Assembly: GCA_023257655.1 (NCBI GenBank)
Contig: JALRBQ010000014.1
Coordinates: forward strand, 56,261 to 120,260
Reading direction: 5' to 3'
DNA length: 64,000 bases
From: Pseudomonadales bacterium
GTDB taxonomy: Bacteria; Pseudomonadota; Gammaproteobacteria; Pseudomonadales; Pseudohongiellaceae
The position numbers were made by a program, and so were the translations under genes. This document shows positions 27,979 to 31,677 of this stretch, in pieces. The notes under the pieces were generated by a model. That model did no database searches. It was not told the DNA's origin and saw only the letters and a list, made by a program, of their open reading frames with translations. Each line of letters starts with the position of its first letter. Within the stretch, counting starts at the first letter, position 1.

Positions 27979-29061
27979 ATGGCCATGCAGCGGCTGACAC
28001 AATTCCTGAAATTCGCGGGCATTCCGGGGCTGCTGCTCGCCGGCGTGGCCTGGAATTACGCCGCGGTGGCGCAGGAGATACCTCCCTCGGCTGCCGAAAC
28101 CATCCCGCAGGAGGTCGCACCAGACCCGGTGGATGTGCCGGAGGTGCCGGCGGTGGATGCCGCTGAACTCGCGCGCGAGCGCAGCGAGCGTACTCAGGCG
28201 ATTGAAGAAATGCAGAGTGAGTTTGGCATCTACAGTCCCCAACTCGCCGAGGCCTATGCCGACTTCGGCGCCTATTACCTCAATCTCGGCGACTACGAGA
28301 GCGCGATTGCGCAGTACACATCGGCCCTGCAGATCGCGCGCATCAGCTACGGCCTGTACGGCGAGGAACAGCTGCCGGTGATCCAGAAGCTGATCGAAGC
28401 CAACCAGCAACGACAGGACTGGGAAGAGGTCGACAAGCTGCAACACCTCGCCTATCACATCAGTACCCGTCTCTACGAGATCAAAGATGCGCCTTACCTG
28501 CTCGCGGCGACGGCATATGGCGATTGGAAGTTGCGTGTCGTGAAGGAAAATCTGCTGCAGATGAACAGCCGCACGCTGATTCGGGAGACTGAAGACCTGA
28601 GTGCGTTTTATGACAAGGTGATAGCCCGGTTGGAGACCGAATCGGAGGCGAGTCAGGAAGACCTGTTGCAATTGCTGTATGGCGAATCCATCGCCGACAT
28701 TTCGCTCGCCCGCATGGCGGCGATGACGCCGTTTACTGCCTTTCAAGGGACCGTGTCGCAGTATGTCACCGAGACCCGTTGCCAGAACGGATTGAATTCA
28801 CAAGGGCAGGTTGTGCGCCAGTGCTTCAGCGTGCAAGTGGAAAATCCGCGCTATCGCCAGTCGCAACAGGATGCCAAGCAGATTGCCGTGACTCAGTACA
28901 CTCGAGAGGTGACACGGTCCATCGACAAATTGCAGGCGATCTCGGCCGCAAGCGTCGCTCTCACCGCTGAACAGCGGGCGGCACTGGACAGCCACATCGC
29001 CGAATTGCAGACCGAATCCATCCAACTTCAACGCGTGGCCCGACGCCGCTCTCTGTTCTAG
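27979..29061 (+). CDS. Secreted TPR-containing protein
   Basis: A 360-residue exported protein. After the signal peptide (AVAQE, about residue 33), a low-complexity Pro/Glu/Val linker leads into a TPR-like region (residues about 75-130) with [31 protein letters not shown]. The C-terminal half is helical and has one Cys pair ([14 protein letters not shown]). GGAAGACGC precedes the ATG. It is probably periplasmic. No enzyme motif is seen. The neighbour downstream is the selenoprotein candidate, 124 nt away. Confidence 0.75.
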
Positions 29062-29185
29062 GTCGCGCTTTCTTCAATTCGGCGGGACTGCCGGAATTAC
29101 TGGTAATTTGTTGCAACTAAGAGTACAAAAGTGGGGTCAGCCGGGTTTCGACCAGGCTGAGTTTGCGCAATCAATGGAGGAGAGT

Positions 29186-29728
29186 ATGTCTCAGTACATC
29201 AACCGGCTCAGTCGGCTGTTGCTATCCGCACTCGTTGCGGCCGTAGCACTCGGCAGCCAGCTTGTGGCTGCACTGGAAGTCGGGGATCAAGCCCCGGATT
29301 TTTCCTTGCAGGCATCCGATGGCAAGACCTACACCATGTCCCAGTTCAAGGGCGTGCGACCCGTAGTCATTGCCTTCTTTCCCAAAGCCTTCACCGGCGG
29401 ATGAACCATGCAATGTAAAGCGCTGCGTGACAGTGCCAAAGAAATTCAAAGTTTCGACGTTGCTTACTTTATGGCCAGTGTAGACACACTGGAAGACAAC
29501 ACGGCGTTTGCGGCAGAGCATGAGGCAGGATTCCCGATTATGGCGGATCCCACCAAGGCCATGTCGACGGCGTACGGTGTGTTGGGTGAACGCGGTTTCA
29601 ACAACCGCTGGACTTATTACATCAGTGCCGAAGGCATCGTGTTGAAGATTGACAAGGAAACCAACCCGGCAACGGCGGGCAAGGATCTGACGAGAACCAT
29701 GGAAGAACTGGGTTTTCCGAAGATCTAG
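29186..29728 (+). CDS. Exported peroxiredoxin with in-frame UGA at the peroxidatic cysteine: candidate selenoprotein
   Basis: 180 residues if UGA (29402-29404) is read as selenocysteine. The signal peptide ([29 protein letters not shown]) starts at an ATG with GGAGGAGAGT upstream. The peroxiredoxin fold has [19 protein letters not shown], then [10 protein letters not shown]73-TMQCKALRD, and continues with [11 protein letters not shown] and FNNRWTYYI. In BCP/PrxQ-type relatives the position of U73 is the peroxidatic Cys, and C77 would be the resolving Cys. The frame is intact on both sides, so the two track ORFs (29108-29404, 29408-29728) are one gene. A candidate SECIS and a terminator support this. 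The alternative is a nonsense mutation of TGT/TGC. Confidence 0.8.
29402..29436 (+). promoter_or_regulatory. Candidate bacterial SECIS element after the UGA
   Basis: The UGA is followed by 15 nt and then the stem GCGCTG (29420-29425), loop CGTGA, CAGTGC (29431-29436). This is a 6-bp stem with one G-U pair and a 5-nt loop that has G at its second position. The distance and loop G agree with the loose bacterial SECIS model as I remember it. A competing, weaker fold (GCAATGT with ACAGTGC) is also possible. Confidence 0.55.
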
Positions 29729-29754
29729 AACCAGGTTTTACCAGCCAGACCCCG

Positions 29755-29790
29755 ACGGGTGTCAGAGCTTGCTCTGGCACCCGTTCTTCG
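29755..29790 (+). terminator. Strong intrinsic terminator after the peroxiredoxin gene
   Basis: ACGGGTGTCAGAGC and GCTCTGGCACCCGT (29755-29784) form a 14-bp stem with one G-U pair and a TT turn, followed by TTCTTCG. It lies 27 nt after the stop of the peroxiredoxin gene. Confidence 0.85.
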
Positions 29791-29936
29791 TTAGCCCTTC
29801 TGCAGTGAAGAGATCCAGCACAATCATGGCAGAATCCGGGCACTTTCTGTCCGTTCCATGATTTTGTCCGCTTCGGTTGTAGCGCTCCTGACCCTGTGCC
29901 AGAATGACCGCCTTCTGTTTTGAGCGGAGTGAATCC

Positions 29937-30797
29937 ATGTCCAAGACTGGCTTGTGGGCAATTGCCGCGGTCGCGGTGCTTACCCTGCTGTATCTGGTCT
30001 ATCTCGCGGCGACGTTCGAAGCGCCCGCGGGTACTACTACGGTGGCGATTCCGCCGCCGACCCTGCAACCGGTGGTTCGCGAAACGCCCGCTCCACTGCC
30101 GAGTACCCAACTGGCTCCCCCGCCCGAATCTGTTACCGCAACAACGAGCGCGCCGGCGACGGTGGCACCGAAACCGGCAGAAGTTCAAGCGCCGGCTCCT
30201 GTCGTGGCCGACATCGAACTGCCGTCGCTGGGGGAGAGTGATAATTTTATCGCCAACGGGCTGCGTGCGGTGCAAAACGGGGCGACTCTGCTGCGACTGC
30301 TGACCAACGAGCAGATGCTCCGCAAATTCGTCGTGTTCGTGGACAACGTCAGCCGCGGCAGCTTCCCGCAAACGGGCTTGCCCTATCGACCTATAGGACA
30401 GGAAATGCCAGTTACGAACGTGGACGATAATCTGTACACCATGAACAGCAGTGCCCACAACCGGTTCGACCAGTTTGTCGATGCGTTCGTGGCACTTGAT
30501 ACTGATCAGGCCATGCTGTTGTACCGAACGGTGTCTCCCCTGTTGCAACAGGCCTATGCCGAAATCGGCTTTCGGGACGTGAATTTCGACGACACGCTGC
30601 GCACAGCCATCAATCGGGTGCTGAGTGTGAGCGAAGTGCCAGGACCCTATCAGCTCGTGAAACCTTCGGTGATGTTCCTGTATGCCGATGCCAGTATTGA
30701 GAACCTTTCCGCTGTGAACAAGCAGTTGATTCGTCTTGGGCCCGACAACAGTGCCAAGGTAAAGACCAAGCTGCGGCAGTTCCTCGCACAGCTCTAA
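29937..30797 (+). CDS. DUF3014 family protein
   Basis: A 286-residue membrane-anchored protein. One N-terminal helix (about residues 5-23) is followed by a long Pro/Ala/Thr-rich linker (to about residue 90). The conserved DUF3014 domain then holds LLRLLTNEQMLRKFVVFVDNVSRG, HNRFDQFVDAFVALD and YQLVKPSVMFLYADASIE. Function is unknown; a periplasmic location is likely. The ATG at 29937 with GGAGTGAATCC upstream is preferred to the track start. Confidence 0.87.
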   Translation: MSKTGLWAIAAVAVLTLLYLVYLAATFEAPAGTTTVAIPPPTLQPVVRETPAPLPSTQLAPPPESVTATTSAPATVAPKPAEVQAPAPVVADIELPSLGESDNFIANGLRAVQNGATLLRLLTNEQMLRKFVVFVDNVSRGSFPQTGLPYRPIGQEMPVTNVDDNLYTMNSSAHNRFDQFVDAFVALDTDQAMLLYRTVSPLLQQAYAEIGFRDVNFDDTLRTAINRVLSVSEVPGPYQLVKPSVMFLYADASIENLSAVNKQLIRLGPDNSAKVKTKLRQFLAQL

Positions 30798-30828: not shown

Positions 30829-31677
30829 ATGCCAGAAATCACCTCGCCGCTAATTTCCGTTGACTGGTTGCAGCGACACCTGGGTGACCCCAATCTGGTA
30901 ATTCTTGATGCGTCGGTGCCGCCTGTGGTGCCGGGGTTTCAGGCGCTGAATGCAGGCGCAACGTTTCGGGCCATCCCCGGAGCGCGGCGCTTCGATTACG
31001 ACAAGACAATCTGCAAACCCGGCACATCCTTGCCGCATATGATGCCGACGGCGGAGCATTTCCAACAGGAAGTGCGCAAGCTGGGCATCAATCGCGACAG
31101 CGTCATCGTCGTGTATGACGATGTGGGTGTCTATGCGAGCCCGCGTGCCTGGTGGATGTTCCGGGCCATGGGTCATGCCGCCGTCGCCGTTCTGGACGGC
31201 GGATTGCCGGCGTGGATCGACGCCGGCTTGCCCGTTACCGATAGTCTGGCAAGCGCTGCACAGGGCGACTTTGTTGCCAGCCTGGACCCGGACCTCTTCT
31301 GTGATTTTGAAGTGGTGCTGGCTGCGCTGGACGATTCCTCCTGCCAGATCCTCGACGCCCGTTCCGCTGGCCGCTTTCATGGCACGGCCCCTGAACCTCG
31401 CCCTGGCATGCGCAGTGGTCACATGCCCAACGCCAAAAACCTGCCGTTTCCGGACGTTTTGGAGGGTGGCAGGATGAAACCGGTGGCCGAGTTGCAGTCG
31501 CTGTTTGCGAATCTGGCGCAGCCTGAACAGCGCGTGATTACGAGTTGCGGCTCGGGACTCACCGCCTGCGTGCTCACGCTGGCCGCCAACCTCGCCGGAT
31601 ATAACCGGCTGTCCGTGTATGACGGTTCCTGGGCGGAGTGGGGTGCTCCCGGCCATCTGCCCGTCGTCACCGACTGA
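30829..31677 (+). CDS. sseA: 3-mercaptopyruvate/thiosulfate sulfurtransferase (two-domain rhodanese)
   Basis: A 282-residue two-domain rhodanese. The N-terminal domain is inactive (VDWLQRHLGDPNLVILDAS), and the C-terminal domain carries the catalytic cysteine in ITSCGSGLTACVL. The loop CGSGLTA is of the CGSGVTA type found in mercaptopyruvate sulfurtransferases, whereas thiosulfate rhodaneses have CRKGVTA. It would move sulfane sulfur from 3-mercaptopyruvate or thiosulfate to thiols or cyanide. It is cytosolic. The ribosome-binding site is distant and weak. It is convergent with an MscS gene. Confidence 0.87.
   Translation: MPEITSPLISVDWLQRHLGDPNLVILDASVPPVVPGFQALNAGATFRAIPGARRFDYDKTICKPGTSLPHMMPTAEHFQQEVRKLGINRDSVIVVYDDVGVYASPRAWWMFRAMGHAAVAVLDGGLPAWIDAGLPVTDSLASAAQGDFVASLDPDLFCDFEVVLAALDDSSCQILDARSAGRFHGTAPEPRPGMRSGHMPNAKNLPFPDVLEGGRMKPVAELQSLFANLAQPEQRVITSCGSGLTACVLTLAANLAGYNRLSVYDGSWAEWGAPGHLPVVTD

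Follow-up and report, generated by a model that had tools for sequence, protein, structure and literature searches.

A predicted exported peroxiredoxin with selenocysteine at its active site in a marine Pseudohongiella-related bacterium

Known Selenocysteine Peroxiredoxins and Their Relation to the Locus

Peroxiredoxins carrying selenocysteine (Sec) in a TxxU motif are already known and are abundant in sea water (PMC1088965, PMC2398784). As far as the available extracts of the Sargasso Sea and GOS selenoproteome reports describe them, these enzymes (PF00578/COG1225) have a peroxidatic Sec, come from marine bacteria and have widespread Cys homologues, and the preliminary description of the present locus was right to state that such bacterial selenoproteins exist. 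The gene analyzed here, found in a 64,000-nucleotide stretch of DNA (the window), shares the Pfam family, the TxxU motif, the predicted peroxidatic Sec, the marine hosts and the Cys homologues, and belongs to this already known kind of selenium enzyme. By these descriptions, the present gene could well already be among the published sequences. Its less expected features are a predicted export signal and a putative single partner Cys at position +4 (U-x3-C), compared with +5 in PrxQ; the same extracts make no mention of either for the Sargasso/GOS peroxiredoxins (PMC1088965, PMC2398784). A search of the open-licence literature found no paper linking selenoproteins with Pseudohongiella or OM182.

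A peroxidatic Sec is also present in PrxU of Eubacterium acidaminophilum (NCBIfam NF040737), but the present protein scored 42.7 bits with that model, against a cut-off of 270, which marks it as a member of a different peroxiredoxin subfamily. The PrxQ/BCP thiol peroxidases (NF006960; 81.8 bits, cut-off 140) have in common with it the Gly before the peroxidatic residue, the fold and the helix position, whereas predicted export and Sec in place of Cys set the present protein apart. None of the NCBIfam models reached its cut-off on this protein. The partner Cys also differs from that of the 2-Cys PrxQ enzymes, being invariant at +4, while the BCP paralogue of the same genome (L009, CTVQAC) has it at +5; the position of the resolving Cys is known to differ from one PrxQ structure to another (PMC5302317). 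AhpE of Mycobacterium tuberculosis was the best PDB sequence match (E=3e-17), was among the top structural matches and shares the AFTG motif, but it is a 1-Cys enzyme with Cys at this site, and its aligned sequence lacks a signal peptide.

The explanation that covers the locus as a whole, to which we assign a probability of roughly 96%, is an exported PrxQ/AhpE-like peroxiredoxin with a SECIS-directed Sec73 as its peroxidatic residue, probably resolved by Cys77. Judged from sequence, the TGA almost certainly encodes Sec, placed in the active site of an exported enzyme that destroys peroxides. This decoding had been proposed in the preliminary description, and it is supported by the sel genes, by the Sec/Cys column of the alignment and by a SECIS hairpin with covariation; selenium incorporation is predicted.

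Protein Family, Active Site and Proposed Function

A Pfam search matched residues 32-153 to AhpC-TSA (PF00578; E=3e-30, 105.1 bits against a cut-off of 26), and the match ran continuously across the TGA, confirming that the in-frame codon interrupts an otherwise intact peroxiredoxin. Alignment with 38 homologues revealed that P66, T70, position 73 and R141 are invariant, and that the TGA occupies the C column of the PxxxTxxC motif, exactly at the peroxidatic Cys, as had been claimed. In an AlphaFold model (mean pLDDT 90), residue 73 was placed near the start of helix 71-82, in agreement with the structures of Bcp1, AhpE and PrxQ. Among proteins of known structure, M. tuberculosis AhpE and the Bcp proteins of archaea are its best relatives. 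The N-terminal hydrophobic helix was modelled with lower confidence; a similar signal-like leader occurs in the homologues listed, which makes a periplasmic location of the enzyme likely.

In the proposed mechanism, the SECIS hairpin immediately 3′ of the UGA would recruit SelB and Sec-tRNA(Sec), leading to insertion of Sec at residue 73. The Sec73 selenolate would attack H2O2 or an organic peroxide, and Cys77, a helical turn further on, would probably then resolve the selenenic acid into an intramolecular Sec73-Cys77 selenenylsulfide, from which a periplasmic thiol reductant would restore the enzyme. Cys77 is a plausible resolving residue, and in the mature protein it is the sole Cys besides Sec73. 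Export would pose the question of how re-reduction of the selenoprotein proceeds in the periplasm.

A U-x3-C arrangement within one helical turn is also a possible redox pair, and together with the predicted export it would suit a selenoprotein acting as an envelope reductase or disulfide-exchange enzyme instead of a peroxidase. Such a function is improbable, since the full peroxiredoxin signature (PxxxTxxU and Arg141) is kept and the CxxC motif of thioredoxins is absent.

Gene Structure and the Status of the TGA Codon

Translation through the TGA, which is codon 73, yields a single 180-aa protein from ATG 29186 (Table 1). The upstream mechanical ORF starts earlier, at TTG 29108; ATG 29186 was preferred because it has the ribosome-binding site GGAGGAG, as the preliminary description had noted, and agrees with the start of the orthologues. 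A scan of the window for TGA-interrupted frames ranked the codon-73 site second of 301; the top-ranked frame looks like two adjacent genes. The terminator proposed earlier was borne out in part, in that a very strong hairpin (14 bp, -24.8 kcal/mol, z -4.8) lies 3′ of the gene, but it has a weak T tail and was not among the terminators returned by a consensus terminator scan. When the TGA is taken as a stop, annotation splits the enzyme into two fragments, and an antioxidant enzyme of a common marine lineage is hidden. The gene is genuine, and annotation can easily get it wrong.

Table 1. Positions of the gene, its predicted functional elements and its conserved neighbors in the window.
Feature	Position	Strand	Basis or remark
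TPR protein, conserved upstream neighbor	27979..29061	+	synteny
Ribosome-binding site GGAGGAG	29176..29182	+	read from sequence; 3 nt 5′ of ATG 29186
Predicted Sec peroxiredoxin gene	29186..29728	+	180 aa; stop TAG 29726-29728
Predicted signal peptide, residues 1-29	29186..29272	+	cleavage VAA/LEV placed by eye
Active-site motif P66-K-A-F-T70-G-G-U73 (PxxxTxxU)	29381..29404	+	family alignment
UGA codon, Sec73, predicted peroxidatic residue	29402..29404	+	orthologue TGA/TGT column; sel genes in genome
Cys77, putative resolving residue (U-x3-C)	29414..29416	+	invariant in alignment
Predicted bacterial SECIS hairpin	29420..29436	+	stem GCGCUG/CAGUGC, loop CGUGA 29426-29430
Arg141, conserved active-site arginine of peroxiredoxins	29606..29608	+	invariant in 38 homologues
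Hairpin 3′ of gene, possible terminator (weak T tail)	29754..29785	+	folding
DUF3014 protein, conserved downstream neighbor	29904..30797	+	synteny
Rhodanese-domain protein (sulfurtransferase-like), conserved neighbor	30829..31677	+	synteny

Termination at the TGA followed by a restart at ATG 29408, two codons on, would produce two proteins. A single codon (ACC) separates the two triplets, rather than the two codons given in the preliminary description. This arrangement is very improbable: the single peroxiredoxin domain would be split and its peroxidatic residue lost, the downstream hairpin would be left without explanation, and the Met is not a conserved start, its column holding Ala in L054 and L085 (both Sec homologues) and Ile or Val in those with Cys. 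It is equally hard to credit that the UGA is read as another amino acid (Trp or Cys, for example, by near-cognate read-through) or that the code has changed, since 13 of the 35 window ORFs of at least 900 nt end in TGA (some of these ORFs are perhaps not genes), the genome encodes SelB and a tRNA-Sec with a UCA anticodon, and homologues swap TGA with Cys codons only. A pseudogene or sequencing error, in which a TGT/TGC Cys codon was mutated or misread as TGA, would fit the TGT/TGC codons at this site in L036 and in sister-genus orthologues but is already refuted by independent assemblies: the same TGA recurs in 31 further homologues, nearly all from separate assemblies, the frame is intact, synonymous sites 3′ of the TGA are constrained, and strong purifying selection acts on the part downstream of it (dN/dS 0.02-0.11), upholding the earlier judgment that the gene is not decaying.

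The SECIS Element

The published bSECIS model calls for a loop of 3-9 nt with a G within its first two positions, a stem of 4-16 bp, a UGA-to-loop distance of 16-37 nt and an energy of at most -7.5 kcal/mol (PMC13188914). The hairpin GCGCUG-CGUGA-CAGUGC lies within these bounds, having a 5-nt loop, a 6-bp stem, a UGA-loop spacing of 21 nt and an energy of -7.9 kcal/mol; G and U occupy positions 2-3 of its C-G-U-G-A loop. On its own, as a 25-nt fold, the hairpin has only modest stability (z about -2), and it is unexceptional within a 53-nt fold, and an Rfam scan of the region returned no matching family.

Codons 79-83 (GCG CTG CGT GAC AGT) never change in 29 Sec genes. Each of the corresponding residues (Ala, Leu, Arg, Asp, Ser) has two to six possible codons, and comparable codons elsewhere in the gene had a mean synonymous diversity of 0.49 in 29 sequences. 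Synonymous variation in codons 79-84 was lower than in the rest of the gene (Mann-Whitney p=4e-4), and pairwise dS was 0.14-0.32 in codons 74-86, compared to roughly 1.5 and above in codons 87-180, where it was often saturated. The hairpin persists in diverged Sec homologues despite altered letters. In L082 and L054, a stem G-U pair is replaced by G-C. In L085, the loop-closing G-C is replaced by C-G and another G-C by U-G, while the loop CGUGA is kept. The covariation score was 0.122 compared to 0.054 for shuffled alignments, and none of 500 shuffles reached it; the clearest compensatory changes come from one distant sequence, L085. Cys homologues do not have the stem, with 48% of cells paired, and the same columns were no better than shuffled. 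On these comparative data, the hairpin is a SECIS element with covariation. The SECIS data are the strongest evidence for Sec, as they are explained neither by decay nor by ordinary constraint on the protein.

Distribution of Sec and Cys Forms

A species-genome scan recovered 27 full or nearly full relatives from other genomes (60-87% identity), of which 26 have TGA at codon 73 and one (L036) has TGT. In the alignment check proposed by the preliminary description, close homologues had only Sec (TGA) or Cys in this column. Most of the further homologues with TGA (28 of the 31) come from the Pseudohongiella-related group of the window itself. Among 195 genomes of the order, the TGA form was found in three of the window's genus (counting the window's own genome) and in one of another family, while the Cys form was found in three sister-genus genomes and many others. 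Two more TGA forms, with 68% and 44% identity, were found in other families of the class. A tree built by a short search with position 73 masked required three Sec/Cys changes, at least two of them on well-supported branches. A search of viral contigs found no relatives, and among the matches listed from plasmid and phage records there were only distant peroxiredoxins (<40% identity).

The gene order TPR - peroxiredoxin - DUF3014 - rhodanese is kept, with gaps where a locus is cut or a neighbor is missing or has diverged too far. The Cys form of the close relative L036 is flanked by the same TPR and DUF3014 genes and therefore occupies the same locus as the Sec form. Related genera that carry the Sec form or the Cys form at a shared syntenic locus offer a natural experiment on why bacteria keep or lose selenocysteine.

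Selenocysteine Decoding Machinery

The genome that contains the window (3.1 Mb in 101 contigs, 93% complete, 2.5% contamination) was found to encode selA (497 bits), selB (366 bits), selD (261 bits) and tRNA-Sec (selC; 66.9 bits, anticodon UCA), all on contigs other than that of the window. The absence of selA, selB and selC had been named beforehand as the finding that would speak against Sec, and this objection therefore falls. SelD (L046 247-2529) forms a fusion with an NADH-dehydrogenase-like domain, and its active-site motif contains Cys rather than Sec; fusions of this type were reported from GOS data (PMC2398784).

All six checked whole genomes with the TGA form have selA and/or selB. 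By a hand count in the order sample, SelA was present in 4/4 genomes with the TGA form versus 9/25 with the Cys form, and the machinery therefore looks necessary but insufficient for the Sec form. Two sister-genus loci, L051 and L052 (genomes G184 and G045), have the Cys form in genomes that have kept selA and selB, so that the machinery was not lost there, whether the Sec form had been replaced or had never existed.

Formate dehydrogenase is the most usual selenoprotein. A search of the window's genome for its alpha subunit gave no match over the cut-off and no in-frame TGA. A SECIS covariance model run over the same genome revealed no convincing gene besides the peroxiredoxin; two weak matches (E 0.7 and 4.5) had no selenoprotein-like frame on inspection. 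A more tentative proposal, which we hold to have somewhat less than an even chance, is that the protein represents a distinct exported subfamily of marine Pseudohongiella-related bacteria, in which the single Sec and single Cys of the mature protein, at a spacing of four residues on the same helix, would form a periplasmic Sec73-Cys77 selenenylsulfide, and which would also be a main reason why the Sec machinery is kept.

In the window's own genome, an ORF recognized by eye as tyrosine-integrase-like (L002 50-649, C70) adjoins the tRNA-Sec gene. This suggests a genomic island inserted at selC, a site at which such islands are known in E. coli.
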